This document shows, one piece after another, positions 594 to 35,224 of a stretch of 64,000 nucleotides of DNA. The translations under genes and the position numbers were made by a program. Positions within the stretch are counted from its first letter, which is position 1, and the number at the start of each line of letters is the position of its first letter. Source of the stretch: Streptomyces sp. TLI_235. Lineage in GTDB: Bacteria; Actinomycetota; Actinomycetes; Streptomycetales; Streptomycetaceae. The notes beneath the pieces were generated by a model. The model ran no database searches and was not told the DNA's origin. It was given only the letters and a program-made list of their open reading frames with translations. The DNA is taken from positions 4,154,001-4,218,000 of the forward strand of contig NSGV01000001.1 in the NCBI GenBank assembly GCA_002300355.1. The letters are read 5' to 3'.

Positions 594-1112
594 ATGACCG
601 CTGTCTGGGAACGCGCAGGTGATGCGGCCGAGGTCCACGCGCTGCTGCGAGCGTGCGACGCCCACCAGGCGGAGCGGTCGGGCACGGCTGCGCCCGACCG
701 CAGCCTGGCGACGACCGAGGCCCTGGTGCGCCTGGGCGCCGTTCACCTGCTGCGCAGCGACGGCCGGGCCGTCGCCATGTTCACCCTGACCACCGCGCCG
801 CGTCCCGAGCCGGCGACGGACGACTACCCGCCCGCGAGCAGCCCGGTGTACCTCAGCCGGCTCGCCGTGGCACCCGACCTGCTGGCCGACGGCACCCTGA
901 TGGGGGTGCGCTGCGTCCGCAAGGCCGTGCAGCTCGCCGGCGGGACGGGCGCGGACGCGCTGCGCGCGGAGGCGAATCCGGACCTTGTGAACACCCGCGC
1001 CATGCTGGCCGACCTCGGGTTCGAGCAGCACGGCCCCGTACACGCGGACGAGACGGGCCGACGGTACGTCCGTCTCCAGCGGACTCTTCGACCGGGGGAG
1101 AAACCTCGATGA
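594..1112 (+). CDS. GNAT-family N-acetyltransferase
   Basis: The 172-residue product has the GNAT layout. A central beta strand VYLSRLAVAPDLL leads into a GxL/M-rich acyl-CoA-binding loop and helix (residues about 95-125), then ANPDLVNTRAMLADLGFEQ, the usual C-terminal N...A..ml..lGF signature. It should transfer an acyl group from acyl-CoA to an amine, but the acceptor cannot be read from sequence. The ATG at 594 has a strong ribosome binding site (GGAGGG at 584-589). Its stop overlaps the radical SAM start by ATGA, so the genes are translationally coupled. In this context it may acylate a biosynthetic intermediate or give self-protection (inference). Confidence 0.75.
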   Translation: MTAVWERAGDAAEVHALLRACDAHQAERSGTAAPDRSLATTEALVRLGAVHLLRSDGRAVAMFTLTTAPRPEPATDDYPPASSPVYLSRLAVAPDLLADGTLMGVRCVRKAVQLAGGTGADALRAEANPDLVNTRAMLADLGFEQHGPVHADETGRRYVRLQRTLRPGEKPR

Positions 1113-6497: not shown

Positions 6498-7721
6498 TCA
6501 GCTCACCAGGGCTTCGGTGCGGGCCTGCAGCCGGCGCACGCTCGGATAGCCGAGGCTGACCACCCGGGGCACCGCGACCAGCAGGGCCAGCACGCCCAGG
6601 CTCGCCGCCACCCCGACGGAGGCCGCGACCGCGCCCAGGGCGTAGCCGACCGGCCGCAGCGCGGACGAGCTCAGCCAGTCGTAGGACGACACCTTCGACA
6701 GCGCGTCGTCCGGGACGTGCTGCTGCATGGTGGTGAGCCACAGCGAGTCCGCCGCCGTCATGCCCGCGCCGGCCAGCGCCAGCGCCGCGGCCTGGACGGC
6801 GGCCGGTGCACCGGCGGCGACCAGCAGCAGTGCGGGCACCAGCAGCAGTTCGGCCAGGCGCGCGGCCAGCATGGGGCGCGCGGGCTGGAAGCGGAGCAGC
6901 ACCAGGTCGCCGAGGACGTCGCCGGCGCCCAGCGCGGCGACGACCACCGCCCAGCTCAGCGCCCCGGACTTCTCCTGCAGGGCCAGGATCGGACCGACCA
7001 CCATGAAGACGGCGACCGCGACATGGGTGGCCATGAAACCGGTGAGGCTGGTCCAGATCCACGGGGTGCCGCGCACCAGGCGGAAGCCCCTGGCCAGTTC
7101 ACCGAAGGTCGAGCCGTCCGAGCGCCGGGCGGTCTGCGGGAGTCGGATCCTGGTCGCGCAGAACGCGCCGACCAGGAAGGAGGCGCCGTCCAGGGCGAGC
7201 GCCCAGCCTGCGCCGACGGTCGAGATCAGCAGCCCGGCGACGAGCGGCCCGACCACCCCGGACACACTGCGGGTGAACGACAGCAGGCTGTTGGCCTGCT
7301 GCATCCGTTCGGCGGGCACGGTGAATCTGGTCAGCCCGGAGGAGGCCGGCAGGTGGAAGGCCTGGGCGGTGCCGAAGAGCACCTGCAGGACGATCAGCAG
7401 CACCAGGTTCACCCGGTCGAGCAGCACCATCGCCGCGACGCCGAACTGCACCGCGGCCCGCACCGTGTCCATGGCGGCCATCACGTGGTGGCGCGGCAGG
7501 CGGTCCGCCCACACGCCGCCGAGCAGCACGAAGACCACCAGCGGCACGGTGCTCGCGCCGAGCGCGATACCGGCGGTGGCGCCCGAGCCGGTCGCCTGGA
7601 GCAGTCCGACGGTCAGCGCGACCAGGCTCACCATGTTCCCCAGGACGGAGATGGAGAAGCCGGCGTACTGGTAGCGGAACTGACGGTGCGTGAACGGCTG
7701 GAAGGCCTGGGCCAGTTTCAT
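6498..7721 (-). CDS. MFS transporter (EntS-like, MFS_3 type)
   Basis: The 407-residue membrane protein has about 12 hydrophobic segments. An opening FTHRQFRYQYAGFSISVLGNMVSLVALTVGLL segment and a GGVWADRLPRHHVM loop 2 are typical of the enterobactin-exporter (EntS)/MFS_3 group. It sits inside the NRPS-like operon, 20 bp before the adenylation gene and 36 bp after the ATP-grasp gene, so it is the obvious exporter of the operon product (inference from context). Hydrophobic pattern and length are normal, with no sign of truncation. Confidence 0.83.
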   Translation of the reverse strand: MKLAQAFQPFTHRQFRYQYAGFSISVLGNMVSLVALTVGLLQATGSGATAGIALGASTVPLVVFVLLGGVWADRLPRHHVMAAMDTVRAAVQFGVAAMVLLDRVNLVLLIVLQVLFGTAQAFHLPASSGLTRFTVPAERMQQANSLLSFTRSVSGVVGPLVAGLLISTVGAGWALALDGASFLVGAFCATRIRLPQTARRSDGSTFGELARGFRLVRGTPWIWTSLTGFMATHVAVAVFMVVGPILALQEKSGALSWAVVVAALGAGDVLGDLVLLRFQPARPMLAARLAELLLVPALLLVAAGAPAAVQAAALALAGAGMTAADSLWLTTMQQHVPDDALSKVSSYDWLSSSALRPVGYALGAVAASVGVAASLGVLALLVAVPRVVSLGYPSVRRLQARTEALVS

Positions 7722-7757: not shown

Positions 7758-9020
7758 CTACCGGCCTGCGGGGGCGAAGCCGGCCGCGAGGGCGCGCAGC
7801 ACCTCGCCCACGGCGGTGTCGAGCGACGGCCGGTCCTCGCCGCGCACCGTCACGTTGGCCATCCGGTACTGGGTGGCCGACTTGGGGTCGCCGGGCCGGG
7901 CCAGCTCGTCCACGGCGCGGACCCCGGGCAGGGCCCGCAGGTCGCGTGCGCGCAGGCCGGTGCGCACGTCGCCGTCCCGGTCCGCGAAGGTCGGGAACAG
8001 GCCGGCGGCCGCGCCGCGCATCGCCGAGAGGTCGGCCTCCGGCGGCTCGCCGAGCGCGACCTGCAGGGCGACGCGGACCGGATCGGGGCCATCCACGAGC
8101 CGGAAGAGCCGGGCGGTGTGCCCCGCCAGCCGGCCGTTCACCTCGATGAGCTCGAAGCCGTCCGGGGTCAGCTGCAGCTCGGTGTGGGTCACCCGGGGGC
8201 CGACGTCCAAGGCGTCGAGGATCCGGCCGGTGTACTCCGCGGCCTCGCGGCGGAGCCGGTCCGGGAGCCGGGACGGCAGGAGGTCGCCCTGCACGTTGAC
8301 GGCGTCGGCACCGTCCCGGCCGGCACCGCGCGCGACCGCGACCGGCAGCTTGTCCAGGACGCCCAGGTGGAGGCGGTTCCTGCCGAAGGTCACCGTCTCC
8401 ACCGAGACGAGACTGCCCAGCCAGCCCACGCCGGACGGGTGCGGCGCCGGCTCGATCCGGGTCTCCAGCATCAGGTCCGACCAGTCGGTGCGGACGCCGA
8501 GCTGCCGGCGCAGGTCCTCCTCGCCGTCGAGGAAGGCGATGCCCCGCCCTCCGGCGGCGCGGCGCGGCTTCAGCACGCAGGGGCCGCCGAGCGCGGCGAA
8601 CTCCCGTGCCAGGTCGGCCGGGCCGTCGACGGCCGCGGCCCGCACCGCGGTCAGGCCGGCCCGGTGCAGCAGCCGGCGCTGGACCAGTTTGTCCCAGGGC
8701 CGCTCCACCGTGGAGGCGGCGCCGGGGTGCAGCAGGCCGTGCAGCAGGTCCGCCGTGTCCAGCAGGTCGTCGTGGAAGGTGGTGGCGCCGCGCAGGCCCA
8801 ACGGGGCGAGGAACGCGGCGTGCCCGTCCTCGGGCACCGTGCGGCACTCGAAGAAGCGGCGGGCGACCGCCATGAAGTCCTCCAGCGCGGCCGTCCGCGG
8901 GTCCACCAGCAGGACCACCTCGCAGAGCCCCCGGGCCGCGACGTAGATCTCGCGGAGGTTGGCCGCGCCGTCAGGCGCATGACAGACCCCGATGCGGGGG
9001 AGGGCGACGGATTCGGACAT
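7758..9020 (-). CDS. ATP-grasp carboxylate-amine ligase
   Basis: The 420-residue protein has an ATP-grasp fold. The central lid/glycine-rich region (PCVLKPRRAAGGRGIAFL, around residue 150) and the metal-binding end ELQLTPDGFELIEVNGRLAGH, with the E...N of the Mg site, are intact. The C-terminal part resembles carnosine-synthase/L-amino-acid-ligase-like proteins (DUF-type ATP-grasp, BacD-like). It should make an amide from a carboxylate via an acyl phosphate, giving the operon a second, carrier-independent bond-forming step. It starts at ATG 9020, 14 bp after the carrier gene. Substrate is unknown. Confidence 0.82.
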   Translation of the reverse strand: MSESVALPRIGVCHAPDGAANLREIYVAARGLCEVVLLVDPRTAALEDFMAVARRFFECRTVPEDGHAAFLAPLGLRGATTFHDDLLDTADLLHGLLHPGAASTVERPWDKLVQRRLLHRAGLTAVRAAAVDGPADLAREFAALGGPCVLKPRRAAGGRGIAFLDGEEDLRRQLGVRTDWSDLMLETRIEPAPHPSGVGWLGSLVSVETVTFGRNRLHLGVLDKLPVAVARGAGRDGADAVNVQGDLLPSRLPDRLRREAAEYTGRILDALDVGPRVTHTELQLTPDGFELIEVNGRLAGHTARLFRLVDGPDPVRVALQVALGEPPEADLSAMRGAAAGLFPTFADRDGDVRTGLRARDLRALPGVRAVDELARPGDPKSATQYRMANVTVRGEDRPSLDTAVGEVLRALAAGFAPAGR

Positions 9021-9034: not shown

Positions 9035-9271
9035 CTACCGCGCGGTGGCGGAACGGGCGCCGTCGAGCAGGGTCGCCAGGCGGCCGTCGACGAAGAAGTC
9101 CTCCAGCGGGATCTCGATCTCCAGCCGCGCCTCGATCCGCTCGATCAGGGTGACGGCGAGCAGCGAGTTGCCGCCGAGGCCGAAGAAGTCGTCGTCCGGC
9201 GAGGGGGATTCGACGTCCAGCACGTCGCACCACTCCGCGCGCACCACATCGTCGACAACAGCGCTTTCCAT
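9035..9271 (-). CDS. Stand-alone peptidyl/acyl carrier protein
   Basis: This is a 78-residue acidic four-helix carrier protein. The phosphopantetheine site is FFGLGGNSLL with Ser36. A good ribosome binding site (AGAGAGGA) precedes the ATG. It lies 14 bp upstream of the ATP-grasp gene and 12 bp after the FemAB-like gene in the same operon, and is the likely partner of the free adenylation and condensation enzymes further along. The GGNS core is typical of peptidyl rather than fatty-acid carriers. Confidence 0.88.
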   Translation of the reverse strand: MESAVVDDVVRAEWCDVLDVESPSPDDDFFGLGGNSLLAVTLIERIEARLEIEIPLEDFFVDGRLATLLDGARSATAR

Positions 9272-9283: not shown

Positions 9284-10303
9284 TCAGGGTTTCGGGCCCA
9301 CGGCCCAGACGGGGGACAGCACCGCGCCCCGCCGGGTCTTGGGCGTCTCGGCGTCGAGCCCCAGGTCGACGGCGGTGAGGCCGTGCGCCAGGGCGTGGCG
9401 GACCGGGGCCTGGAACAGGCTCTCCGCGTACGCCTCGTGGCGGTGCTCGTGCTCGTCGACCAGGCCCGTCTCGTAGATCTCCAGGCGCGGGCCGACGACA
9501 CAGGCGAGGGTGACGGCGAGCAGGCCGTCCGGGCCGGACACCGCGAAGGCGATGCGCTCGCCCACCGGGTCGGCCGCCCACTGCGCCAGCCGCATACGGA
9601 TCAGGCGGACGGGGTCGGCCAGCCCGTGCCGCCGCTTGACCTGCCCGACGAGTTCGGCGGCCTCCGCGACCACCTCGGCGGCGGGCCGGACGGCGGTGGC
9701 CAGGCCGCAGTCCGCCGCCGCCCGCCGGTCCTTCAGCACGGTGCGCCGGCCGCTCGCGCCCAGCCCGGCCAGGTAGGCGGCGTCGTCGGCCGGGACGTGG
9801 ATCGTGGAGACCTGCGCGATCCGCTCGGCCCGCCAGCCGTCCTCCGCCGGGAACGCGCCCATCTCCTCGTCGCGGACGTACAGCGCGATCGGGACCAGGC
9901 CCTCCGCCAGGGCCGCCTCGCGTCCGGCGGCGACCAGCGCCCTCCGCACCGCGGCGGCCTCGGCCGGCGGCAGGCCGGCCGCGACGGCCGCGCCGGAGAC
10001 GAGGTCGGTGCAACCGCCGAGGAAGAGGTGGGCGTGAGCCGGCCCGTCGAACAGCTCGGGCACCAGGGCGGCCGGATCGACCGGGCCCGGTCCGGCGCCC
10101 GCCTTGGGCCGCTGGACGGGCAGCATGCCGAGGACGGTGCCGTCGCGGGTCGCCAGTACCACCCGGGAGTGCCATGCCGCGGCGGAGTACGGCCGGCCCA
10201 GCCGGTCCGGCAGCAGTGACACGGAGGAGGCGTTCCACGGCGAGTCCGAGAGATTCCGCGGAATTTCGTCCACCGCCACGAGGCGGGTTTCCACGGCGCT
10301 CAA
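9284..10303 (-). CDS. FemAB/BioF2-like GNAT-fold acyl(aminoacyl)transferase
   Basis: The 339-residue first gene of the NRPS-like operon starts with TTG at 10303; a GTG nine bases downstream is an alternative, and neither has a clear ribosome binding site. The second half (RIAQVSTIHVPADDAAYLAGLGASGRR... ERIAFAVSGPDGLLAVTLACVVGPRLEIYETGLVDE ... LFQAPVRHALAHGLTAVDLG) follows the pattern of BioF2-like GNAT (FemAB-related) domains, which transfer acyl or aminoacyl groups. In peptide antibiotic pathways such enzymes can add an amino acid from aminoacyl-tRNA, but whether this one does is inference. Being first in the operon, it follows a low-GC promoter region with a perfect palindrome. Confidence 0.65.
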   Translation of the reverse strand: MSAVETRLVAVDEIPRNLSDSPWNASSVSLLPDRLGRPYSAAAWHSRVVLATRDGTVLGMLPVQRPKAGAGPGPVDPAALVPELFDGPAHAHLFLGGCTDLVSGAAVAAGLPPAEAAAVRRALVAAGREAALAEGLVPIALYVRDEEMGAFPAEDGWRAERIAQVSTIHVPADDAAYLAGLGASGRRTVLKDRRAAADCGLATAVRPAAEVVAEAAELVGQVKRRHGLADPVRLIRMRLAQWAADPVGERIAFAVSGPDGLLAVTLACVVGPRLEIYETGLVDEHEHRHEAYAESLFQAPVRHALAHGLTAVDLGLDAETPKTRRGAVLSPVWAVGPKP

Positions 10304-10562: not shown

Positions 10563-11951
10563 TCAATTCAGTCGTACGGTCACGCACTTGGGGCGCTGGT
10601 ACTCGCCCAGTGCCAGGGTGCTCAGGTCGGTGCCGTGGCCGGACCCGCGCCGGCCGCCGTGCGGCAGCTCCGGAGTCTGGTCCAGGTGGCAGTTGACCCA
10701 CGCCTCGCCGCAGTCCAGCGCCGCCGCGAGCTCCAGCGCGGTGCCCGTGTCGGTGCTCCAGACGCTGCCGGCCAGGGCCTGCGGAAGGCCGTTGGCCAGC
10801 CGGACGGCGTGCTCGGTGTCCCGGGCCTGCTGGACGGTGAGCACCGGGCCGAAGACCTCCTCCCGGACCGCCGGGTCGTCGTCCGGCAGGTCCGCGAGGA
10901 CCGCCGCGGGACGCCAGTACCCGTCCTCCTCGCCGGCCCCCGGCTTGACCGCGCCGCAGGCCCGGATCCCCGCGGCGGAGGCGCCGAGGAGCCGGTCGTA
11001 GCGGGCCGCCTGGTCCGGGTTGTTCAGCGGACCGAAGTCGATCCCGGCGGTGAGCGAGGACATCGCCGCGGAGAGCCCCTCGACCGTGCGGGCGTAGTTC
11101 TCCGGCAGGGTGATGACCCGGGCGGGCGCCGCGCAGCTCTGCCCCGCGTTGTACGTCGAGGCGGCGGCCAGCGAGGCGTACGTGTGGGCGGGCGCGTCCG
11201 GCATCACCAGGACAGGGCAGTTGCCGCCCAGCTCCAGGCTGACCGGCCGGAGCCCGGCCCGTCGGGCCACGTCCAGGCCGCCCGCGGTGCTGCCGGTGAA
11301 GGCGACCGCGTCCACCGGGCTCTCCACGAGCAGTCGGCCGGTCTCCCGGTCCCCGGTCAGGGTGCTCAGCACGTGCTCGCCGAGGAGTGCGGCGGCGTCC
11401 GCGGCGAGCAGCAGCGCGGTGTCCGGGGTGGTCTCGGCGGGCTTGAGGAGCACCGAGTTGCCGACCGCCAGGGCCGGCCCGAACCGCCACGCCGCCATCA
11501 TCAGCGGGTAGTTCCACGGCACGATCGCGGCGACCACGCCGAGCGGCTCCCAGCGGACCCAGCTCTCGCGGTCGTCCATCCGCCGGCCCGCGGCGGGGAC
11601 GGCCTCGGTGCGCGCGGCACCCGCGTAGAACCGCACCACGTCGGCCGCGCCGACGATCTCCGCCTCGGCCTCCGCGAGCGGCTTGCCCGTGCCGGCCCGC
11701 TCGGCCAGGGCGTACTCCGAGCGGCGGTCCTCGATCCGGTCCGCCAGCCGCAGCAGGCGCCGCGAGCGTACGGCCGGGGTGAGGGCCGCCCAGCCGCGCT
11801 GAGCGGCCCGGGAGGCCTCGACGCGGGCGGCGACGTCCTGCTCGCGGGAGATCGGGAATCCCTCCCGGAGTCTTCCTGTTCGAGGATCGGTGAGGGCGCT
11901 CCGGGCGTCCCGGGCGGAATCGGCCTGACGGGTGTGCGAACTCGTCGACAT
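10563..11951 (-). CDS. Aldehyde dehydrogenase (betaine/aminoaldehyde-type)
   Basis: The 462-residue NAD(P)-dependent dehydrogenase starts at MSTSSHTRQADS; longer in-frame starts up to 12092 look non-coding. It shows PWNYPLMM and KPAETTP (cofactor strand), FTGSTAGG (Rossmann turn), LELGGN with the general-base Glu, and GQSC with the catalytic Cys. It oxidises an aldehyde to an acid. It is transcribed toward the NRPS-like operon but separated from it by 260 bp and a hairpin, and is divergent from the oxygenase operon. It could supply an amino- or carboxylic-acid building block for the cluster (inference). Length and motifs are complete. Confidence 0.85.
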   Translation of the reverse strand: MSTSSHTRQADSARDARSALTDPRTGRLREGFPISREQDVAARVEASRAAQRGWAALTPAVRSRRLLRLADRIEDRRSEYALAERAGTGKPLAEAEAEIVGAADVVRFYAGAARTEAVPAAGRRMDDRESWVRWEPLGVVAAIVPWNYPLMMAAWRFGPALAVGNSVLLKPAETTPDTALLLAADAAALLGEHVLSTLTGDRETGRLLVESPVDAVAFTGSTAGGLDVARRAGLRPVSLELGGNCPVLVMPDAPAHTYASLAAASTYNAGQSCAAPARVITLPENYARTVEGLSAAMSSLTAGIDFGPLNNPDQAARYDRLLGASAAGIRACGAVKPGAGEEDGYWRPAAVLADLPDDDPAVREEVFGPVLTVQQARDTEHAVRLANGLPQALAGSVWSTDTGTALELAAALDCGEAWVNCHLDQTPELPHGGRRGSGHGTDLSTLALGEYQRPKCVTVRLN

Positions 11952-12302
11952 GCGAGCAGAGCATAGGCCATTCGGGTGCTGACGGGCGGTGATTCGCAGC
12001 CGGCGGACTGCGCTCCCCGTGCGCGGATGTGACATACCGTCACCAAACGGTGATAGGCGGATCCATATCGGATGAACCGGTGCACCCAGCATCCGCCGGA
12101 CGAGTCAAGATCTAGGCAGTGGGCGATCTATGGGGTTAACTGGCGCTTGCGGGCTGCACCTCGGCTTGTGTGGTGCAGCTGACGTCTCACGTGCGGTCGT
12201 AATGATCATTTGCCGGCGAGCCCCGCGCAGTGTGCGCGAGCGGGTCGGCGCAGACCCGATTCCGGGATCGCGAATTCGTCGCCGGGCTCATGGGGGATAA
12301 CC
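11952..12302. promoter_or_regulatory. Divergent promoter region between dehydrogenase and oxygenase operons
   Basis: About 350 bp without a convincing gene. The stretch 12060-12215 is noticeably less GC-rich than its surroundings. It holds an inverted repeat GCTGCACC/GGTGCAGC (12153-12160 and 12172-12179, 11-base spacer) and a small TCACC-AAAC-GGTGA repeat at 12040-12053. It should carry the promoters for both flanking transcripts; no clear sigma-factor hexamers could be assigned. Confidence 0.5.
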
Positions 12303-13154
12303 GTGCTCGCTAGTTGTTTTTCCGAGGACGAGGCCGACGAGCACTGTCGCCTTCGACGCCGACTCCTCTCCGTCGATTCCGAGCTCCCGCCGCCGGCGGT
12401 GGGCTTTCCGGCCGCGGCCGACGGCTTCCTCGAGGCCGGCGCCGACCGGCTGCTGCACAACCTCCGGGAGTACGGCCTCGCCGTCGTGCACCTGGACGAA
12501 CCACTGACGCACGATCAGTTCGTTGCTCTGGGTGCCCTCCTGGGCGAGGCGATACCCGAGACCGACGACGCGGTGCAGCCCTACGTCGAGGACGGCATCG
12601 TCCTCAACCTGGTGGCCGACGCGGGCCGGACGCAGGACGTCTCGCTCCAGCCCTTCGCCACCGGACCGCTCTCGCTGCACAGCGAGGGCAGCGGCCGCAG
12701 CGCCGCCGACCAGCCCCGGTACATCGTCCTGATGTGCGAGGAACCCGGCAGCGGCGAGTCCGCCGCCACGGTCCTCGTCCCGATGGCCGCGGTCGCCGAC
12801 CGCCTCTCCGCCGAGGACGCCGTCCTGCTGGCCGCCACCCGCTACGAGGGCCGCCCGGGCGTGCCGACCGTGGCGCGCCGCGAGGACGGTCGCACGGTCT
12901 ACTCCTTCCGCGACTTCCAGCGCGATCCGCTGCACTGGGTGTGCGACGCCCCCGAGGCCCACCCCGACACGGTCAACCGCGCCATCCGCCGCCTGCTCGC
13001 CGGGATGTACGCGCCGCGGCAGGCCTACGGCGTCCCCTGGACCCGCGGGCTCCTCGTCGTCATCGACAACACCTGGTTCTTCCACGGCCGGACCGCGGGC
13101 GCCGTCGGGCCGGTCGGCCGGCCGCGCCACCTCAAGCGGCTCCGGATCCGCTGA
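12303..13154 (+). CDS. Fe(II)/2-oxoglutarate-dependent oxygenase (TauD/clavaminate synthase-like)
   Basis: The 283-residue protein has an HxE iron-binding pair (LHSEGSGR, H126 and E128), a distal His in NTWFFHGRT (H261), and a C-terminal Arg-rich RHLKRLRIR that can bind 2-oxoglutarate. The HxE rather than HxD motif and the YIVLMCEEP segment resemble the clavaminate synthase/VioC branch, which hydroxylates or desaturates amino acids, sometimes carrier-bound. I chose GTG 12303 because GGGGG lies 7-11 bases upstream; the frame is open back to ATG 12210, but that stretch looks like leader. It is the first gene of the seven-gene plus-strand operon. Confidence 0.82.
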   Translation: MLASCFSEDEADEHCRLRRRLLSVDSELPPPAVGFPAAADGFLEAGADRLLHNLREYGLAVVHLDEPLTHDQFVALGALLGEAIPETDDAVQPYVEDGIVLNLVADAGRTQDVSLQPFATGPLSLHSEGSGRSAADQPRYIVLMCEEPGSGESAATVLVPMAAVADRLSAEDAVLLAATRYEGRPGVPTVARREDGRTVYSFRDFQRDPLHWVCDAPEAHPDTVNRAIRRLLAGMYAPRQAYGVPWTRGLLVVIDNTWFFHGRTAGAVGPVGRPRHLKRLRIR

Positions 13155-13263
13155 CCCCCGCCTCCACCGCGTCCCCGCACGGGACCGTCCTTCCGCCGTG
13201 CGCCGACCCGGGTCCCGTCGCCGTGGCACTCCGCTCGCTCACCTGTCATGCCCTGGAGAAGTA

Positions 13264-14838
13264 ATGCAGCTGTTCGCCACCACGCCGCCGGCGCGCCGCA
13301 TCGACGTGCCCACCGAGGCGCGCCTGGCTGCCGCCGGTGCGTGGCAGACCCCGCACGACAGCGGTGCCTTCCTGTCGGGTGTGGACCAGCGGACCCTGGA
13401 GGTCTACCGCAGAGCGGTCGACCCCGGTGACCCGATCGAACTCCGCAACCTCTGGCTCGGCCGGGTGGAGACCGAACTCGGCGGCCCCACCACCCGGCAG
13501 TGGCAGGCCGACCTGTGGCGCGACTCCCGCGTCCGCCGCGAGGTCACCGAGGAGGAGGTGCTCGGCTCGCGGTCGACCGTCCGCTTCGTCAAGGAACTCT
13601 TCAACTGGTACTTCCGTGACGACCTCTACGGCGAACTCCGTGACGACGCGCGGACGATGCTCTCCGGCGGCTCGGTCGACGAACTCAACTGGGGTCTCCC
13701 GGAGGCACTCAAGGACTGCATCAGGTACGCCCTGCAGCGCGACTGGTACGGCTACTCCGACTCCTGCGGACGCATCCCCGCCCGGGAGGCCGTCGCCGCC
13801 TACGAGAGCGCCCGGATCGCCGGCACCACCTACACCGCCGCCAACGTCGCACTCACCATGGGCGGCACCTTCGCGGTGAGCACCCTGGCCGACTACGTGC
13901 TCGCCGGCCGCTCCTCCGACGCGGCCCCCGCCCTGTGCGCCACCCCCAACTACCCGCCGCTCGTCGAGGCGATCGCCCGCCGCGGCAACGTCCGACTGGT
14001 GCCGCTCGGCACCGAGGGCGGGGTGATGGAACTCGGCCCGCTGATCGACGCCCTGACCCCGCAGACACCGTTCGTCCTGCTGCAGACCGCCGCCAACCCC
14101 ACCGGCGCCGCCGTCGACGAGGAGGAACTGGCCCGGCTGATCCAGACCGCCTCGCCCACCACGATGATCGTGCTCGACGAGTGCCACGAGTGGCTCGGTG
14201 AGACCCGCACCGCCTCCGTCCTGCGCTCCGCTCCCAACGTCATCCGGGTGTCCAGCCTGTCGAAGAACTGGTCGGCACCGGGCATCAAGGTGGGCTGGAT
14301 CCTCGCCGACAGCTCGTTCATCGCCGACTACTACGAGTACGCCTCCACCAGCTTCGGCGGCCCGCCCTCCTTCTTCTACACGGTGGTCGAGGTCCTGGCG
14401 CGGATGGAGCGCTGGATGATCACCGGCCTGACCCGGCCCGGCGCCGACGAACTCCGCGAGTTCGAGTCCTCCTACGGCCTCACCCTGGACCGGCTCCGCG
14501 CCGCCTACGACACCTACTGCGCCGACCGCCGGGCCCGCGAGTCCTGCCTGCAGCTGCTGCGCGACGCGGCCGGCGCCGAACTCTGCCGGGTCGGCGACGT
14601 CGTGCGGCCCCGGTACTCGATCAACACCGCAGTCCGCTTCGACCGGTGGGACGACTCCTACCTGTGCTTCCGGGACCTGCTCCGCAGCACCGGCGTGTCC
14701 GTCTACCCGGGCATCCTCAACTTCTGCTTCTCCGGCGGCGTCGCGCGCATCACCACGGCCCGCGCCTGGGAGGACCTGGCGCCCGCCCTGCGGCGGATCG
14801 GCGCGGCCGTCGGCGAGCGGGAGGCCGCCGGTGTCTGA
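13264..14838 (+). CDS. PLP-dependent aminotransferase-fold enzyme (class I/II)
   Basis: The 524-residue fold-type I PLP enzyme has YGYSDSCGRIPAREAVAAY near residue 160, AANPTG near 280, VLDECHEW (the Asp that binds the pyridine N), and SLSKNW with the internal aldimine Lys at K334. It is about 100 residues longer than ordinary class I aminotransferases because of an N-terminal extension, as seen in aspartate beta-decarboxylase-like and some cyclising PLP enzymes. ATG 13264 follows GGAG by 7-8 bases. It may aminate, decarboxylate or cyclise the product of the neighbouring oxygenase (inference from the VioC/VioD-type pairing). Its stop overlaps the next gene by eight bases. Confidence 0.82.
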   Translation: MQLFATTPPARRIDVPTEARLAAAGAWQTPHDSGAFLSGVDQRTLEVYRRAVDPGDPIELRNLWLGRVETELGGPTTRQWQADLWRDSRVRREVTEEEVLGSRSTVRFVKELFNWYFRDDLYGELRDDARTMLSGGSVDELNWGLPEALKDCIRYALQRDWYGYSDSCGRIPAREAVAAYESARIAGTTYTAANVALTMGGTFAVSTLADYVLAGRSSDAAPALCATPNYPPLVEAIARRGNVRLVPLGTEGGVMELGPLIDALTPQTPFVLLQTAANPTGAAVDEEELARLIQTASPTTMIVLDECHEWLGETRTASVLRSAPNVIRVSSLSKNWSAPGIKVGWILADSSFIADYYEYASTSFGGPPSFFYTVVEVLARMERWMITGLTRPGADELREFESSYGLTLDRLRAAYDTYCADRRARESCLQLLRDAAGAELCRVGDVVRPRYSINTAVRFDRWDDSYLCFRDLLRSTGVSVYPGILNFCFSGGVARITTARAWEDLAPALRRIGAAVGEREAAGV

Positions 14839-15646
14839 GTTCCGCCTCGCCCCCGGCCGCAAGACCGTCATCGGCATGATCCACCTCAAGCCGCTGCCCG
14901 GCACCCCCTTCCACGAGGAGGGCGGCTTCAGGGAGATCCTCGACACCGCCGTGGCCTCCGCCGTCGCCCTGCGCGACGGCGGCGCGGACGGCTGCCTCGT
15001 CCAGACCGTCGACCGCGTCTACAGCACCGAGGACGAGTGCGACCCCGCGCGGGCCGTCGCCATGGGCCTCGTCGTCGACGCCGTCACCCGGGCCACCGGC
15101 GGCGGCGCCGACTTCCGGGTCGGCGTCCAGATCATGCGCAACGCGCTGAGCGCCTCGCTCGCCGTCGCCAAGGTGGCCGGCGGCTCCTTCATCCGGGCCG
15201 GCGCCCTGGTCGGCATGACCCTCTCCCCGCACGGCATGGTCCAGGCGGACCCGCTGCGCACCGCCGAGTACCGCCGCCGGATAGCCGCGGACGGCATCGG
15301 GGTGATCGCCGAGGTCGACTCGATGCACTTCCGCTGGTTCGGCGAACCCAAGCCGACCGGCGAGGTCGCCAGGGCCGCCCGCGGCATGGGCGCGGACGCG
15401 GTCTCCCTCGGCAGCCCCGACGAGGAGTACACCCTCGACGCCATCGCCTCCGTGCGCCGCTGCGCCCCCGGCCTGCCGGTACTGCTCGCCGGCCACACCG
15501 ACCACGCCAACGCCGCCAGGCTGCTGGCCGAGGCCGACGGCGCCTTCGTCGGCACCTGCCTCGAACAGGGCGGCTGGGGCGGCCGGATCGACACCGACCG
15601 GGTCAAGGCCTACATGGACATCGCCCGCTCCCTGGAGCGGCCGTGA
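14831..15646 (+). CDS. BtpA/SgcQ family TIM-barrel protein
   Basis: The 271-residue protein opens with the family signature (VIGMIHLKPLPGTPFHEEGG) and keeps the VGVQIMRNALSASLAVAKVAGGSFIRAGALVGM and SMHFRWFGEPKPTGEVARAA segments of BtpA proteins. BtpA was named for a photosystem I role in cyanobacteria and SgcQ for a sugar operon; biochemical function is poorly known, with a phosphate-binding TIM barrel expected. It starts with GTG inside the end of the aminotransferase gene and overlaps the SIS gene by GTGA. Its place beside a sugar-phosphate SIS protein inside a carrier-protein operon is unusual and points to a phosphosugar or nucleoside step (inference). Confidence 0.82.
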   Translation: MSEFRLAPGRKTVIGMIHLKPLPGTPFHEEGGFREILDTAVASAVALRDGGADGCLVQTVDRVYSTEDECDPARAVAMGLVVDAVTRATGGGADFRVGVQIMRNALSASLAVAKVAGGSFIRAGALVGMTLSPHGMVQADPLRTAEYRRRIAADGIGVIAEVDSMHFRWFGEPKPTGEVARAARGMGADAVSLGSPDEEYTLDAIASVRRCAPGLPVLLAGHTDHANAARLLAEADGAFVGTCLEQGGWGGRIDTDRVKAYMDIARSLERP

Positions 15647-16755
15647 CGACCACCGGCACCACGCACCGGGCCGCCGCGCCCATCGACGTCGCGGTCATGG
15701 CCCGGCAGACCCGGCGGCTCGCCGCCGACCTGCGCACGCTCACCGGACCGACCTGGGAGGAGACCGGCACCGCCCTCGCCGCGCTCGGCGGCACCCGCCC
15801 CACCAAGGTCTGCCTGATCGGTGACGGCGACTCCTACCACGCCGCGCGGGCCGCCGAGATGGCCTTCGAGACGCTCGGCGGCACCGACTGCGAACCGCTC
15901 TCCGCCCAGCGCTTCCTGGACTACCACGTCGACCTGCCCGCCCACACGGGCGGCGCACCGCTCGTGGTGGGCGTCTCCTCCTCCGGCCGCACCGAACGCG
16001 TCCTGCAGGGCGTGGCCCGGGCCCGTGCCCGGGGCCTCGCCACCATCGCCGTCACCGGGGCCGCCGACAGCCCGCTCGCCCGGGCCGCGGCCGCCGCCGT
16101 CACCGTCGCGCCGCCCGACCCGGAGCGCTCGCCCGGCATCCGCACCTACCAGGCCAGCCTGCTGGCCCTGCTGCTGCTCGCCGTCCGGCTCGGCGGCCCC
16201 CGCGGGTCCGGCCGGCCCGATCAGGTCGCCGAGATCGCCTCGCTCGCATCCGCCGTCGACGCCACCGAGCGGGCCCTGCAAGGACCCTGCGAGGACCTCG
16301 GCCGCGAACTCGCCGCGGGCCCGGTGATCGCCGTCCTGGGCAGCGGGCCCGGTGAGGGCACCGCCAAGTACTGCGCGGCGAAGCTCGTCGAGGGCGCCGG
16401 GGCGATGGCCTTCGGCCAGGACCTGGAGGAGTGGTGGCACGTCGAGCGGTTCGCCGCCCCGCTCGACATGCCGCTGCTCGTCCTCGCCCCGCCGGGCGGC
16501 GCCCACGACCGCGCCGTCGACCTCGCCGCCCGCGCCGCCGCGCTCGGCCGCCGGGTGGTCGCCGTCCTGCCCGAGGGCGCGCCCCCGCTCGAAGGCCCGA
16601 ACCTCCGTACCGTCCGCGTGCACGGCACCGTGCGCGAGGAGTTCTCCCCGCTGCTCTACCACCTGTTCGCCGGGCACCTGGCCACCGGGCTGGCCCGGCA
16701 CACCGGCCGCCTGCCCTTCCAGTCCCACCGGGCCGCCGGCCCGGCCGGCGACTGA
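15643..16755 (+). CDS. SIS-domain sugar-phosphate isomerase/deaminase-like protein
   Basis: The 370-residue protein has two SIS-like halves, as in the isomerase part of GlmS and in AgaS. The first is visible as KVCLIGDGDSYHAARAAEMAFETL and VVGVSSSGRTERVL (phosphosugar-binding Ser loop). The second is VIAVLGSGPGEGTAKYCAAKLVEGAGAMAFGQDLEEWWHVERF, whose final part matches the E-x-x-H-G/H active-site region of these enzymes. It likely aldose-ketose isomerises, aminates or deaminates a sugar phosphate. Start GTG 15643 is translationally coupled (GTGA) to the BtpA gene. Confidence 0.8.
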   Translation: MTTTGTTHRAAAPIDVAVMARQTRRLAADLRTLTGPTWEETGTALAALGGTRPTKVCLIGDGDSYHAARAAEMAFETLGGTDCEPLSAQRFLDYHVDLPAHTGGAPLVVGVSSSGRTERVLQGVARARARGLATIAVTGAADSPLARAAAAAVTVAPPDPERSPGIRTYQASLLALLLLAVRLGGPRGSGRPDQVAEIASLASAVDATERALQGPCEDLGRELAAGPVIAVLGSGPGEGTAKYCAAKLVEGAGAMAFGQDLEEWWHVERFAAPLDMPLLVLAPPGGAHDRAVDLAARAAALGRRVVAVLPEGAPPLEGPNLRTVRVHGTVREEFSPLLYHLFAGHLATGLARHTGRLPFQSHRAAGPAGD

Positions 16756-16822
16756 CACCCGACCGGGCGGCGGCGCCACGCCTCCGGCACGACCGAGACA
16801 CCACTCCAGAAAGACAAGACCC

Positions 16823-17245
16823 GTGGACATCTCCTTCGATCCCCAGCGGCACATCCGGAACATCTTCGACTCGCCTGAGGTCAAGCTCGTCGACTCCAAC
16901 GGCCAGGTCCTGCCCGGCATCCTCGGCACCGTCGGTGCCGGGGAGCTGATCGAGGGCGGAATCGCGATCGGCGCGGACCGCCTCATCATGGAGTGCGGCG
17001 CCAGGTTCGAGCTGCACACCCACCCCGGCGCGCACATCCTCTACGTGCTCGGCTCCCGCGGCTACATCCACATCGACGGCGTCGACTACGAGATGGGCCG
17101 GGGCGACACCGTCTTCGTCCCCGCCAACTACGCGCACGGGGTGAAGACCAACCTGCACGTGCCCGAGCCGCTGGAGATCCTCGCCTTCGGCGTCCCGCAC
17201 ATGCCGCTGGAGTCCGCCGAGCGCATGACGCTGGTGGAGGAGTGA
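16823..17245 (+). CDS. Cupin-domain protein
   Basis: The 140-residue single-domain cupin has ELHTHPGAHILYVLGSRGYIHIDG (motif 1: G..H.H....E-like position replaced by His/Leu context) followed by GDTVFVPANYAHGVKTN (motif 2: PxxxxH). His residues suitable for binding a divalent metal are present. Such small cupins can be dioxygenases, epimerases or isomerases; none can be singled out. GTG 16823 is the only good start. The 67-bp gap upstream is the largest early in the operon, and its stop overlaps the carrier gene by four bases (GTGA). Confidence 0.75.
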   Translation: MDISFDPQRHIRNIFDSPEVKLVDSNGQVLPGILGTVGAGELIEGGIAIGADRLIMECGARFELHTHPGAHILYVLGSRGYIHIDGVDYEMGRGDTVFVPANYAHGVKTNLHVPEPLEILAFGVPHMPLESAERMTLVEE

Positions 17246-17520
17246 CCGCCCCCGACCGGCCCGGCGCCGACGAGGCGCTGGCCGCCGTGCTCGCCACGGT
17301 GCGCAGCCAACTGCCGGACTCCGCCGACCCGTCGGCGGAGATCGACCCCGACGCGCCGCTCGACGGGCTCGGCTTCGACTCGCTCCGGACGGTCCGGCTG
17401 CTCGTCGAGGTCGAGGAGGCGCTGGGCGTCGAGTTCCCGCCCGACCTGGTCACCGCCGAGACCTTCCGCACCGCCCGGACACTCGCCGACGCCGTCCTCG
17501 ACGTCCGCACCGCCCGCTGA
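17242..17520 (+). CDS. Stand-alone acyl carrier protein
   Basis: The 92-residue carrier has the phosphopantetheine site GLGFDSLRTVRLLVEVEEALGVEFP, Ser47. The D-S-L core and the acidic helix II are of acyl rather than peptidyl type. Its coupling to the cupin gene by GTGA, and an AMP-ligase 44 bp downstream, suggest that the ligase loads it and that the oxygenase, PLP and cupin enzymes may act on tethered intermediates (inference). This is the second lone carrier protein in the cluster. Confidence 0.88.
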   Translation: MTAPDRPGADEALAAVLATVRSQLPDSADPSAEIDPDAPLDGLGFDSLRTVRLLVEVEEALGVEFPPDLVTAETFRTARTLADAVLDVRTAR

Positions 17521-17564
17521 CCAGGACCGCCGCCCGCCCGCCGGCCCCGAACGAGGAACACCCC

Positions 17565-19166
17565 ATGCCCGACGGCCACCCGGCCCACACCGACCCCGTC
17601 CACCGCTACGAGGGCCTCCCGTTCCGGGCCGGCACACCACGCCGTGCCACCGTCCTGGACCACCTGGACCACTGGGCGGCCACCCGGGGCGGCGACCCGT
17701 ATCTCACCGCCGTCGCCGCCGACGGCGGCACCACCGTGCTGACCTACCGGGAACTCGACCGGTACAGCCGACGGCTCGCCCACTGGGTGCTCACCGAGGC
17801 CGCGACCCCGGGCGAAGCGGTCGGGCTGATGCCCGTCAACGACGCCGAGTCCGTTGTCGCGGTCTACGCCCTGCTCAGGGCGGGCTGCCCGGCGCTGATG
17901 CTCAACCCGGCCGATCCGGCGGCCCGGCTGGCGCAGCAGACCGAGGCACTCGGTGTCCGGACGGTGCTGCACGGCGCGAACGCCGACGGCGGCGGCCTCC
18001 CCGGGGCCCGTCGGCTGCCCGACCCGCGCCGGCTGCCCGACCCGCCCGCGAAGGGCAGCCCGGAGCCGGCGGCCGGCCCCGGCGCGGACGCGCTGTACTT
18101 CGGCACCTCCGGATCCACCGCGGCGTCCAAGCTGGTCGCCCAGACCCACGCCAACGCGGTCGCCAACGCCGAGGCGCTCCGCCGCCTCCACGGCCTCGGC
18201 CCGGGGGACACCTTCCTCGGCTGCCTGCCGATCCACCACGTCAACGGCGTCCACTTCACGCTCTTCGGCACACTCGCCGCCGGCGCCCACGCCGTCCTCG
18301 CCGAACGCTTCAGCCCGTTCGGGTACCCGAAGCTGCTGACCGCGTACCGCCCGCGGGTGGCCAGTGTCGTGCCGAGCGTCCTGGACGCGCTGACCGAGAC
18401 CTGGCGCAGCCCCCGGCTGCCCGCGGAGTTCCGCTACTTCGTCTCCGCGGCGGCACCGCTCTCCGCGGAGACCGCCAGGGCCGTGCACGACCGGCTCGGC
18501 GCCCGCGTCCTGCAGGGGTACGGGCTGACCGAGACCACCAACTTCTCCACGACACTGCCGGCAGGCCTCTCCGACGACGCCTACCGGCGGCTCGTGCTCG
18601 ACACCGACATCCCGTCCGTCGGTGCCGCCGTGCACGGCAACGAGGTGGCCGTCCTGCTGCCCGACGGCAGCCCCGCCGCACCCGGACAAACCGGTGAGGT
18701 CTGCATGCGCGGCCACAACGTCATGGCCCGCTACGCCAACAACGAGGAGGCCACCGCCGAGGCCTTCCGGGACGGCTGGTTCCACTCCCAGGACCTGGGC
18801 CGCGCCGTCGTCGACGAGGAGACCGGCCGGACGGTGTTCGTCCTCACCGGACGGACCAAGAACACCGCCAAGGTCCGCGGCGAGACGGTGTCGCTGGAGG
18901 AGATGGAGCGTGTCCTGCGGGCACTGCCCGGGGTGCGCGACGCCGCCTGCGCCGCCCTCCCCGACCGGCTGCTCGGGGAGACGATCTCGGCGGCGGTCTG
19001 CGCGGAGCCCGATCTCACCGACCCGGCGCTGCGGGCGCACCTGCTCCGGCACTTCGCCGAGGCGGTCGTCCCGACCCGCATCCTGCGGGTCGACCGGGTG
19101 CCCCGCACGGCCACCGGCAAGATCCTCCGCCCCGAACTCAGGGAGCTGCTGTCCCGGCGGCCCTGA
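17565..19166 (+). CDS. Acyl-AMP ligase / acyl-CoA synthetase family protein
   Basis: The 533-residue ANL-superfamily enzyme has LYFGTSGSTAASKLVAQTH (P-loop-like A3), YGLTETTNFS (A5), FHSQDLGRAV (equivalent to A7), GRTKNTAKVRGETVSLEEME (hinge) and PRTATGKILRPEL with the catalytic Lys. It lacks the FDxS amino-acid signature of NRPS adenylation domains, so a carboxylic acid without an alpha-amine is likely. It probably activates an acyl unit for the adjacent carrier protein. It is the last gene of the operon, and its end overlaps the convergent NUDIX gene by 29 bp, so no terminator fits between them. Confidence 0.82.
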   Translation: MPDGHPAHTDPVHRYEGLPFRAGTPRRATVLDHLDHWAATRGGDPYLTAVAADGGTTVLTYRELDRYSRRLAHWVLTEAATPGEAVGLMPVNDAESVVAVYALLRAGCPALMLNPADPAARLAQQTEALGVRTVLHGANADGGGLPGARRLPDPRRLPDPPAKGSPEPAAGPGADALYFGTSGSTAASKLVAQTHANAVANAEALRRLHGLGPGDTFLGCLPIHHVNGVHFTLFGTLAAGAHAVLAERFSPFGYPKLLTAYRPRVASVVPSVLDALTETWRSPRLPAEFRYFVSAAAPLSAETARAVHDRLGARVLQGYGLTETTNFSTTLPAGLSDDAYRRLVLDTDIPSVGAAVHGNEVAVLLPDGSPAAPGQTGEVCMRGHNVMARYANNEEATAEAFRDGWFHSQDLGRAVVDEETGRTVFVLTGRTKNTAKVRGETVSLEEMERVLRALPGVRDAACAALPDRLLGETISAAVCAEPDLTDPALRAHLLRHFAEAVVPTRILRVDRVPRTATGKILRPELRELLSRRP

Positions 19167-20156: not shown

Positions 20157-21572
20157 TCAGGCGGCGGCCACGCGCTCCGCGGCGGCGTCCAGGCGGGCCA
20201 GCACGCGCTCGCGGCCGAGCAGCTCCATCGACTCGAACAGCGGCAGGCCGACGGTGCGGCCGGTGACGGCCACTCGGATCGGGGCCTGGGCCTTGCCGAG
20301 CTTCAGGCCGTGCTCCGAGCCGACCTTCTCCAGAACGGACTTGAGGTCCTCGGCCGCCCAGGGCGCCGAGGCGAGCGCCGTCCGGACGTCCCGCAGCAGC
20401 TCCTCGGCGCCCGCCTTCATCGCCTTGGCCCACGAGGCCTCGTCGGCGACCGGCTCGTCGAGGAAGAGGAAGTCCACCTGCGCGGTGATCTCCGAGAGCA
20501 CGGCGATCCGCGTCTGCGCGAGCGGCGCGACCCGGGCGAAGACGGCGGAGTCGAAGGCCTCCGGCCGCCACGGCGCGTGCGGGGCGGCCAGCCACGGCGC
20601 GCAGGCCTCGGTGAACCGCTCCGGGCTCAGCGCCCGGATGTAGTCGCCGTTGAACGCCGTCAGCTTCTTGATGTCGAAGAACGCCGAGGAGCTGTTGACG
20701 TTCTCCACGCGGAACAGCTGCTGCAGCTCCTCGAACGGCAGGATCTCCCGGTCGTCGCCCGGCGCCCAGCCCAGCAGCATCAGGTAGTTGACCATCGCCT
20801 CGGGCAGGAAGCCCTCGGCCAGGTAGTCCTCCAGCGCCACCTTGTCGCGGCGCTTGGAGAGCTTCTGCCGCTTCTCGTTCACGATCACCGGCAGGTGCGC
20901 CCAGACCGGCGGCTGCGCGCCGAGCGCCTCCCACAGCAGCTGCTGCTTGGGCGTGTTGGAGAGGTGCTCCTCGCCGCGGACCACCTGGGTGACGCCCTCG
21001 TCCAGGTCGTCGACCACGTTGGCGAGCAGGAAGACCGGGGTGCCGTCGCCGCGGGCGATGACGAAGTCCTCGATCGCGCTGTTCGGGAAGGCCGGCTCGC
21101 CGCGGATCAGGTCCACGACCACGGTCTCGCCCTCGTCCGGGGTGCGGAAGCGCATCGCCCGGCCCGGCTCCCAGCCGAGGCCGCGCTCGCGGCAGAAGCC
21201 GTCGTAGCCCAACTGCTGCGAGCCGGTGCGCTCCTGGACCTGCTCGCGGGTGCAGTCGCAGTAGTAGGCCCGGCCGGCCCCGTGCAGCTGACCGGCGGCC
21301 TCGCGGTGCCGGTCGGCGTTGTGCGACTGGAAGTAGGGGCCCTCGAAGGCTGGGTCGGACTCGTTGATGCCGATCGCGGAGAGGGCGTTGACGATCCCGT
21401 CGATCCACTCGGGCTTGTTGCGTACCGCATCGGTGTCTTCGATGCGCAGGACGAAGGTGCCGCCGGACTGTCGCGCCACAGCCCAGTTGTAGAGGGCGGA
21501 ACGAGCGCCGCCGACGTGGAACATGCCGGTCGGGGACGGTGCGAAACGGACGCGAACAGCGGGAGCAGACAT
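20157..21572 (-). CDS. gltX: Glutamyl-tRNA synthetase
   Basis: The 471-residue class I aminoacyl-tRNA synthetase charges tRNA-Glu (and tRNA-Gln where GatCAB is used). It has [21 protein letters not shown] near the N terminus (HIGH-like signature), a FVLRIEDTD segment that binds glutamate, and [14 protein letters not shown] (KMSKS-like). Length and order are normal for actinobacterial GltX. It ends in a strong hairpin. This is a core-genome anchor that helps place the cluster in the chromosomal core region rather than at a plasmid end. Confidence 0.97.
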
Positions 21573-21665: not shown

Positions 21666-22613
21666 TCATCGCAGCAGCGGGACGACCCGGTCCGCGAACA
21701 GCTCCACCGTCCGCCAGTCCACCGGCGGGCGCGCCCCCAGGACGAAGTCCCGCACCCCCATGTCCAGGTAGGGCCGCAGCCGCTCCGCGCACTGCTCGGG
21801 GGTGCCGAAGACGAGGTACTCCGGCCAGACCGGGGAGTCCGGCGGCAGGATCCGCGCCAGCGCCTCGCGGCGGGCCGGCAGCTCCCGCTCGTCCTCGACG
21901 AGCAGGGCGCGGAAGGTCACGGACTTCCGGACGTCCCGCGGGTCGCGGCCGACGTCCGCGCAGTGCCGGGCGAGGACGTCCAGCTTGTGCCGGTACACCT
22001 CGGGGGTGGCGGCGAGCGTGTTCCAGATGTCCGCGTGCTCGGCGACGATGCGCAGCATCCGCCGCTCGCCCTCGCCGCCGATCACCAGCGGCAGCCGGCT
22101 CTGCAGCGGCTTCGGCTCGACGTGGGCGCCGGTCAGCCGGAAGTGCTTGCCGGTGAAGTCGGTGCCCTTCTCGGTCCACAGCCGCCGCATGATCTCGCAG
22201 GACTCGGTGAGCATGTCCAGGCGCTCCCCGGCGGACGGGAAGGGGATGCCGTACTGCTCGTAGCCGAGGTCGGCGCCGGCCGCGCCGACGCCGAACTCCA
22301 GTCGGCCGCCGGAGACGTGGTCCAGGGTGGCGGCGATGTTCGCGGCCATCGCGGGGTGGCGCCAGGTGACCGCGGAGACCAGCAGCGCGCACCGGATCCG
22401 GCTGGTCCGGGCGGCCAGCGCCGCCAGCACGGTGGTGCCCTCGAAGCAGGGGCCGTCCGGTCCGCCGATGGGCGGCCGCAGGTGGTCGAAGAGCGACACC
22501 CAGTCGTAGCCGAGCTCCTCCGCCCGCTGCCACAGCTCCAGCATGTCGTCGAAGGACGAGTACTGCTGGCCCGAGTGGACCCCGAAGCGGACGGTGTCAC
22601 CGTGTATCTGCAT
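21666..22613 (-). CDS. LLM-class F420-dependent oxidoreductase (luciferase-like)
   Basis: The 315-residue TIM-barrel luciferase-like protein has RFGVHSGQQYSSFDDMLELWQRAEELGYDWVSLFDH at the N terminus, SRIRCALLVSAVTWRHPAMAANIAATLDHVSGGRLEFGVG (the typical flavin/F420-binding strand and RxxxGxG), and a C-terminal VFGTPEQCAERLRPYLDMGVRDFVL. Actinobacterial members mostly use coenzyme F420; the substrate is unknown. I took the ATG at 22613, where the family N terminus begins. The frame is open further upstream, but the extra residues look non-coding. It lies 93 bp before gltX on the same strand. Confidence 0.85.
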   Translation of the reverse strand: MQIHGDTVRFGVHSGQQYSSFDDMLELWQRAEELGYDWVSLFDHLRPPIGGPDGPCFEGTTVLAALAARTSRIRCALLVSAVTWRHPAMAANIAATLDHVSGGRLEFGVGAAGADLGYEQYGIPFPSAGERLDMLTESCEIMRRLWTEKGTDFTGKHFRLTGAHVEPKPLQSRLPLVIGGEGERRMLRIVAEHADIWNTLAATPEVYRHKLDVLARHCADVGRDPRDVRKSVTFRALLVEDERELPARREALARILPPDSPVWPEYLVFGTPEQCAERLRPYLDMGVRDFVLGARPPVDWRTVELFADRVVPLLR

Positions 22614-22905
22614 GCCGAATTCCTGCTCTTCTCTCGGGTGCGGCGCGCGGCCGCAGGCCGCTCCGGAGGAGGTGGTTCCGGGGGCGGGCGGAGTCAGGTG
22701 GACGAGTGCCGCGGCGGCCCGCGTCCCGAGCCGATCGGGCGTCAGAAGCCGGGCGGGCGGCGGCCGGTTCAGCATAGAGGAGCCCCCCGGCGCCGCGCGG
22801 GCGTTCCGTGCGGGTACGGCCGGTACCGGGGCGCCCGGCGGTCGACGCGCCGGGGCGGCGCGGACGCCGTCCGGCCGCTCGCGGCCCGTCCACTAGGATG
22901 GCGGG
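22614..22905. promoter_or_regulatory. Divergent intergenic region between oxidoreductase gene and valS
   Basis: About 290 very GC-rich bases that must hold the valS promoter and that of the divergent oxidoreductase. I could not assign hexamers, a T-box or any other leader RNA. A GGCGGGG sequence just before the valS GTG may serve as ribosome binding site. Confidence 0.35.
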
Positions 22906-25539
<2,634 letters not shown>

Positions 25540-35192: not shown

Positions 35193-35224
35193 GCTTCTCC
35201 CGTGGTGCGGAGGGGCGGGCAGGA

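Follow-up and report, generated by a model that had tools for sequence, protein, structure and literature searches.

A BtpA protein and an SIS protein encoded side by side in Streptomyces sp. TLI_235 may work as a two-enzyme unit dedicated to a natural product, converting a common phosphosugar into an unusual sugar building block for it; we give this reading a probability of about 50%. Their genes lie in a seven-gene operon at positions 12303-19166 of the window, by which we mean the whole stretch of 64,000 nucleotides analysed here (G000:C1:4154001-4218000 of the 9.25 Mb genome; G, C and L numbers are our handles for genomes, contigs and loci). What is directly established is which genes are present, that the set recurs, that the two genes are paired and that this BtpA belongs to a separate branch, together with the folds. 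We know of no established reaction for BtpA/SgcQ proteins, and a BtpA branch with an SIS partner in every locus found, mostly within a biosynthetic core, provides a defined system in which such a reaction can be sought.

The seven genes of the operon all lie on the + strand and were assigned by Pfam matches. In order they encode a TauD/TfdA-type 2-oxoglutarate-Fe(II) oxygenase, similar to the N-terminal half of the protein PseP (12303-13154; PF02668, 59.8 bits); a fold-type-I pyridoxal phosphate (PLP) enzyme with an N-terminal extension, similar to the C-terminal half of PseP (13264-14838; PF00155, the class I/II aminotransferase fold, 71.2 bits, the match starting at residue 145); the BtpA of the biosynthetic branch (14831-15646; PF03437, 138.9 bits); its partner, a GlmS-isomerase-like SIS protein (15643-16755; PF01380, 62.2 bits); a cupin (16823-17245; PF07883, 45.1 bits); an acyl carrier protein (ACP; 17242-17520; PF00550, 47.0 bits); and an AMP-forming acid ligase of the AMP-binding family (17565-19166; PF00501, 209.6 bits), which presumably loads the ACP. 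BtpA and SIS share a GTGA overlap, as do cupin and ACP, and the PLP and BtpA genes overlap by 8 bases. A crude codon-position picker chose the frames of TauD, PLP enzyme, BtpA and ligase; where SIS, cupin and ACP lie it preferred frames on the minus strand, so these three genes rest on family matches and homologues. An earlier note, made from the sequence alone, had described this operon and its GTGA-coupled BtpA/SIS pair; the Pfam matches and the recurrence in 17 loci confirm that description, and because the same set recurs in these loci, the association goes beyond chance.

For the comparison we used 17 loci with the PLP enzyme, the window included, and 25 loci with the BtpA branch, 16 of which have PLP and TauD genes and nine of which do not; presence of a gene was set by identity and coverage thresholds and by the stretch read, 11-84 kb per locus and 11-37 kb around each of the nine pair-only loci. 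L161 and L163, on contigs equal in length to those of L039 and L005, were treated as duplicates of these two and left uncounted; L001, L002, L011-L015, L048 and L049 repeat other loci. PLP enzyme, TauD and an F420-type LLM oxidoreductase are found in all 17 loci, BtpA, SIS, ligase and a GNAT acetyltransferase-like gene in 16, aldose epimerase in 15, a separate ACP match in 13 (the ACP is fused to the ligase in R. opacus) and the cupin in 11. The ligase is missing from G634 by thresholds alone, a partial match being present there. These loci apparently represent an undescribed family of actinomycete biosynthesis gene clusters.

Within this family, and beyond it, BtpA and SIS belong together, as the earlier note had supposed. 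An SIS homologue accompanies the branch BtpA in 25/25 loci, being adjacent in 21 and 4-7 kb off in three (G614, G980 and G1043), and across the 25 loci the distances between the BtpA proteins correlate with those between the SIS proteins (r 0.89, a value reached in 0/2000 permutations). The further claim that the pair is tied to the carrier and ligase operon stood in part: the pair lies in the core of 16 loci, nearly always with the ligase, but nine loci have no matching ligase or ACP. Two observations concern single pairs. On the R. opacus plasmid (L051, near 25981-27400) an SIS gene (38% identical) stands beside broken BtpA pieces, and on the Streptosporangium plasmid NZ_CP109431.1 (L039) many genes around the BtpA-SIS pair belong to 7-deazaguanine and nucleotide metabolism.

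By its sequence, the window BtpA falls in a branch remote from the canonical BtpA/SgcQ proteins. It matches PF03437 over residues 10-265, well above the gathering cut-off of 30, and misses the cut-offs of the TIGR00259 subfamily (134.3 vs 153.4 bits) and of NF045918, the photosystem I biogenesis BtpA equivalog (111.8 vs 400). At E <= 1e-20 only one of 150 relatives matches, which is the source genome itself; at E <= 1e-10 there are matches in 28/394 genomes of the class, with identities that drop from 67% (G319) to 34% and lower. In the family of G319 the branch BtpA occurs in 15/341 genomes at E <= 1e-40, two of these being records already compared (G777 and G515), and the genome of G904 carries two BtpA genes of the branch. 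After removal of identical sequences, positions 59, 63, 102, 174, 197, 222 and 245 each hold one residue in 28/28 canonical sequences, which is seen in 0/8 branch members. Phylogenetic analysis of 35 rows separates the branch from 10 canonical proteins with SH-aLRT 100 and a separating branch of 2.0 changes per column, at a split where the tree tool warns of long branches meeting; inside the branch, members from clusters are mixed with those from pair-only loci. A PDB sequence search with BtpA returned nothing meaningful, and literature searches on BtpA in biosynthetic clusters and on this gene combination turned up no paper on the system, though some papers mention BtpA together with photosystem I.

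Canonical BtpA genes keep other company: sugar kinase and ATP-binding cassette (ABC) genes in the annotated loci L041 and L042, phosphotransferase system (PTS) genes of the sgc operon in E. coli, and, judged by eye, ABC-type genes in all of L044-L047 and a kinase as well in L046. Together with the pair of G710, which adjoins an inositol-catabolic-looking operon on the same strand (L152, by eye), this is the ground on which the window pair could be taken for a sugar-catabolic operon that lies by chance beside a biosynthetic cluster. However, the window BtpA is of another branch, neither a sugar kinase nor a sugar-uptake system came up when the proteins of the window cluster were searched against family models, and the arrangement recurs in 16 loci; the neighbourhood comparison that the earlier note had proposed yielded no sugar-catabolic locus unrelated to the carrier protein and contradicts this explanation, which we regard as extremely improbable. 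The four canonical loci L044-L047 yielded no homologue of the window SIS.

The structure of the 14831-15646 product, a prediction the earlier note had also called for, was modelled from 4 sequences with pLDDT 81.4 and pTM 0.85 and a weak stretch at 128-138, and the model is a TIM barrel of the phosphate-binding type. Foldseek ranked tryptophan synthase alpha first. By VIA-align Z the closest folds were thiamine-phosphate synthase 1xi3 (19.6) and HPS-PHI, the 3-hexulose-6-phosphate synthase/6-phospho-3-hexuloisomerase 9lj9 (19.4; 2.7 Å, 204 aligned), in a tie with MJ1099 4rc1 and KDPGal aldolase 2v82 (18.7), followed by tryptophan synthase (17.7). Such matches support a phosphorylated substrate for BtpA.

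The SIS protein was aligned to GlmS, in which we take Glu489 to be the catalytic Glu and Ser350 to be the phosphate-site Ser. A Glu at the first position and a Ser at the second are kept in 25/25 sequences, the Lys604 position not being conserved. Because a double SIS domain keeps both of these positions, isomerisation would be its most likely reaction. Dehydration would be the alternative, since SIS proteins can carry out other chemistry: in the available part of PMC12680351, NagS of Streptomyces is described as an SIS enzyme, a GlcNAc-6-phosphate dehydratase, in a phosphosugar toxicity pathway. Judged from the two folds, a phosphosugar substrate for BtpA and SIS is plausible, and to this extent the earlier proposal of a phosphosugar- or nucleoside-derived unit joined to a carrier-bound acid is supported; that the two are joined, or that BtpA joins them, is no more than possible.

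The oxygenase and the PLP enzyme are two halves of a known protein, a relation that goes beyond the earlier note. PseP (PDB 8k3h and 8k3i; 815 residues) matches the window TauD over its residues 4-281 (E 3.1e-55) and the window PLP enzyme, from residue 39 of the latter and thus with most of the N-terminal extension, over its residues 335-813 (E 1.6e-166); no other PDB protein matches the oxygenase at E <= 0.001, and none comes near it as a match of the PLP enzyme. Since both match this one protein, TauD and PLP enzyme very likely act together. Among NCBIfam models a general aminotransferase model scores best for the PLP enzyme, followed by GntC and, lower, VioD, all far under cut-off. One locus, L169 (G904, C1:610000-629900), holds two PLP enzymes of the PseP-like family, with a third elsewhere in that genome.

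From this evidence we infer all the reactions, the substrates and the identity of the product in the dedicated two-enzyme reading as follows. SIS would isomerise a phosphosugar, and BtpA would most likely perform a neighbouring carbon-skeleton or epimerisation step, by analogy with the barrel half that lies beside the SIS half in HPS-PHI. Aldose epimerase and LLM would act next on the sugar-derived intermediate. Separately, TauD and PLP enzyme would build an amino-acid-like unit as in PseP, ligase and ACP would hold an acid, and variable modules (nonribosomal peptide synthetase (NRPS) domains and ATP-grasp-like, FemAB-like and synthetase-like genes) would add amino acids.

Several observations weigh against this reading. 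Nine of the 25 loci are pair-only, so that the pair is not tied to the cluster product; under the same thresholds these nine loci contain no core or accessory cluster gene except a gltX match in G319, and no gene family beyond BtpA and SIS occurs in more than three of them. Conversely, G040, a genome in one contig, has PLP enzyme, TauD, LLM, aldose epimerase, ligase and GNAT, whereas BtpA and SIS are both missing from the 54 kb read there; a search at E <= 1e-5, made for BtpA but not for SIS, gave no match in this genome. This argues that the ligase and PLP chemistry as such does not require BtpA, and that BtpA and SIS act as one unit. The SIS gene of R. opacus lies about 20 kb from the intact BtpA, and the SIS match in S. 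violaceusniger is split over two frames, a copy that may be broken. The distance correlations are not corrected for shared ancestry, and the loci are not all independent, BtpA being identical in Nonomuraea gerenzanensis and G628 and nearly so in G565 and G569. The tied fold matches of the BtpA model single out no reaction, the model of the PLP enzyme (3 sequences, pLDDT 40.6) is useless, and literature searches found no published function for the BtpA branch or for PseP.

The same loci bear on two other explanations. BtpA might itself join a carrier-bound or PLP-derived unit to the phosphosugar by C-C bond formation, SIS preparing the phosphosugar, which is the strong form of the earlier note's proposal: in the window the BtpA gene overlaps both of its neighbours, PLP and SIS, the barrel matches include aldolases and condensing enzymes, and the BtpA and PLP distances correlate (r 0.89 over 16 loci, 0/2000 permutations as high; r 0.86-0.89 over 15 PLP loci when G628 is dropped). 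Yet kinship alone can yield such a correlation, nine loci have the pair but no matching gene for PLP enzyme, TauD, ligase or ACP, and TauD, PLP enzyme and ligase occur without the pair in G040; we consider this quite unlikely. Alternatively, the pair could have a support function outside the product skeleton, clearing or repairing a harmful phosphosugar or supplying a primary precursor, and be kept beside the cluster. The pair-only loci, which share no common partner and include a plasmid, the absence of the pair from G040, the mixing of cluster and pair-only members in the BtpA tree and the place of NagS in a toxicity pathway (PMC12680351, in the part available) would all fit such a function, but the pair is present in 16/17 PLP loci, mostly among core genes, and its distances track those of PLP enzyme and LLM, and we hold a support function to be rather unlikely.

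The seven genes are part of a larger cluster of about 28 kb, which the earlier note had not recognised. The divergent and flanking genes belong to it because homologous clusters in N. gerenzanensis, G628 and S. triticagri hold them: the N. gerenzanensis and G628 loci have all genes of the wider cluster but the S51-like one, and in S. triticagri the genes immediately after LLM are those for a peptidyl carrier protein (PCP), a major facilitator superfamily (MFS) transporter, an adenylation and a condensation domain. On the + strand, the window opens with the 3' part of a peptidase S51-like gene (1..501; its start lies 146 bases left of the window), which is present in 3/17 loci, 78% identical in S. 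triticagri and 62% in Actinocorallia, with PF03575 found on the Actinocorallia homologue. It is followed by the GNAT acetyltransferase-like gene (594..1112; labelled by eye, a homologue of S. triticagri L003:15414-15908), a radical SAM protein (1103..2314; PF04055 just under cut-off, PF13353 above; 7/17 loci) and a GT1/MGT-type glycosyltransferase (2311..3648; family match; 7/17 loci). On the - strand lie a stand-alone condensation domain (3737..5005; PF00668, 153.9 bits), a stand-alone adenylation domain (5002..6477; TIGR01733, 306.1 bits, just under the cut-off of 317.4), an MFS transporter (6498..7721; family match), an ATP-grasp-like ligase (7758..9020; weak ATP-grasp matches under cut-off, and nothing meaningful in a PDB sequence search), a PCP (9035..9271; family match), a GNAT/FemAB-like transferase (9284..10303; PF13480, 17.8 bits, under the cut-off of 22) and an aldehyde dehydrogenase (10563..12092; PF00171, 353.2 bits). 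The last is found in 10/17 loci, the MFS transporter in 7 and the other five in 6 each. Downstream of the operon, and again on the - strand, is the LLM oxidoreductase (21666..22718, alternative start 22775; TIGR03560, 239.4 vs 231.4 bits).

Left of the window, beyond the S51-like gene, lie an aldose epimerase, an adenylation-PCP protein (6/17 loci) and a 616-residue protein (family in 7/17 loci) for which a family search gave no match and which looks peptidase-like by eye only. Further out (L006, between about 19.8 and 8.4 kb from the left edge of the window), integrase-, excisionase-, primase- and FtsK-like genes (by eye) are arranged as in an integrative and conjugative element and stop a few kb short of the cluster. 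Within the window, histamine N-monooxygenase-like and diaminobutyrate-decarboxylase-like genes at 33900-36787, both under the model cut-offs, apparently form a separate siderophore-type cluster.

A second glutamyl-tRNA synthetase (GluRS) gene, gltX2 (20157..21572, - strand), lies between the operon and LLM, and its membership in the cluster is uncertain; it is 43% identical to the other GluRS copy at 2.68 Mb. GluRS of this type was found in five of 29 other genomes searched (77-82% identity), and in one of these, G319, it lies about 10 kb from the pair-only BtpA-SIS. The other four, G001, G007, G009 and G161, where in G007 it is the sole GluRS match, have no BtpA match in the searches covering them, which counts against a link between gltX2 and the cluster. 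At L083 (G161) and L043 (G319) the neighbours of the second-type GluRS are radical SAM and carbamoyltransferase-like genes, a hint that it also belongs to clusters of another type. The possibility that valS at 22906-25539 is a second resistance gene was dismissed: it is the only copy at E <= 1e-100 and is 80-91% identical to valS of Streptomycetaceae relatives.

Other loci carry other synthetase-type genes: the Actinocorallia locus an extra full cysteinyl-tRNA synthetase (CysRS) and a CysRS-like gene, the R. opacus plasmid an isoleucyl-tRNA synthetase (IleRS) beside LLM (the chromosome was not searched), G904 a GluRS-like gene beside GNAT, G843 two GluRS-like and one asparaginyl-tRNA synthetase-like gene, and G040 two CysRS-like genes. 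An extra synthetase copy is shown for GluRS in the window and CysRS in Actinocorallia only. By eye, some of the synthetase-like genes are without the usual signature and others look intact; the signature-less proteins might be ligases that work without tRNA. With probes that left out the glutaminyl and single-chain glycyl enzymes and covered the histidyl enzyme in part, synthetase-type genes were found in 6/17 PLP loci and 1/9 pair-only loci, and none in 97.6 kb around the six canonical-BtpA control loci L041, L042 and L044-L047. A genome of 8-9 Mb has some 20-25 synthetase genes, and a rough estimate, not a formal calculation, is that chance would place one in about 2-3 of 17 loci if each spans 50 kb. 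The 6/17 is therefore weak evidence by itself, and hints only faintly at a product that is aminoacylated or that inhibits a synthetase.

Taken further, the 17 clusters could specify one family of compounds with a shared sugar-derived core and a lineage-specific amino acid, aminoacyl-adenylate mimics that inhibit the matching synthetase, with the BtpA branch making the core sugar and the intact extra GluRS, CysRS or IleRS serving as the self-resistance copy. The core would be made by BtpA, SIS, LLM, aldose epimerase, TauD and PLP enzyme, and NRPS parts, ATP-grasp or FemAB-like enzymes, or else synthetase-like ligases that have degenerated, would add the amino acid. We think this unlikely, the more so because gltX2-type GluRS also occurs in genomes without BtpA; if the product is indeed aminoacylated in this way, the clusters would define a translation-inhibitor family that is new and carries clues to its own targets. 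SB-219383 is a tyrosyl-tRNA synthetase inhibitor with a sugar-like part. It was considered as a possible relative of the product, and a passing mention in the available part of PMC7916415 was all that was found. Literature searches on synthetase inhibitors turned up no paper on this system.

Among known systems, aminoacyl-tRNA-synthetase-inhibitor clusters, such as that of albomycin, may resemble the present ones in the synthetase-type genes beside 6/17 loci; no compound is known here. PseP is homologous in both halves to the window TauD and PLP enzyme, the difference being that PseP is one chain and the window has two genes. With SgcQ of E. coli and the photosystem I BtpA, the window BtpA shares the Pfam family PF03437 and a similar length, whereas the long separating branch, other conserved residues, scores below the TIGR00259 and NF045918 cut-offs and other neighbours set it apart. 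NagS, like the window SIS, is an SIS protein that acts on a phosphosugar in streptomycetes, and the available part of PMC12680351 relates it to MurQ; its likeness to the window SIS is one of description. The isomerase domain of GlmS has the double SIS arrangement of the window SIS, which keeps the Glu489 and Ser350 positions but has no glutaminase domain and scores 49.7 bits against a cut-off of 418, matching the isomerase part of the model only. HPS-PHI combines a phosphate-binding barrel with an SIS partner, as is the case here, although its barrel match is tied with others and the window SIS is of the double-SIS GlmS type, with 26.5 bits in the HxlB model against a cut-off of 160.

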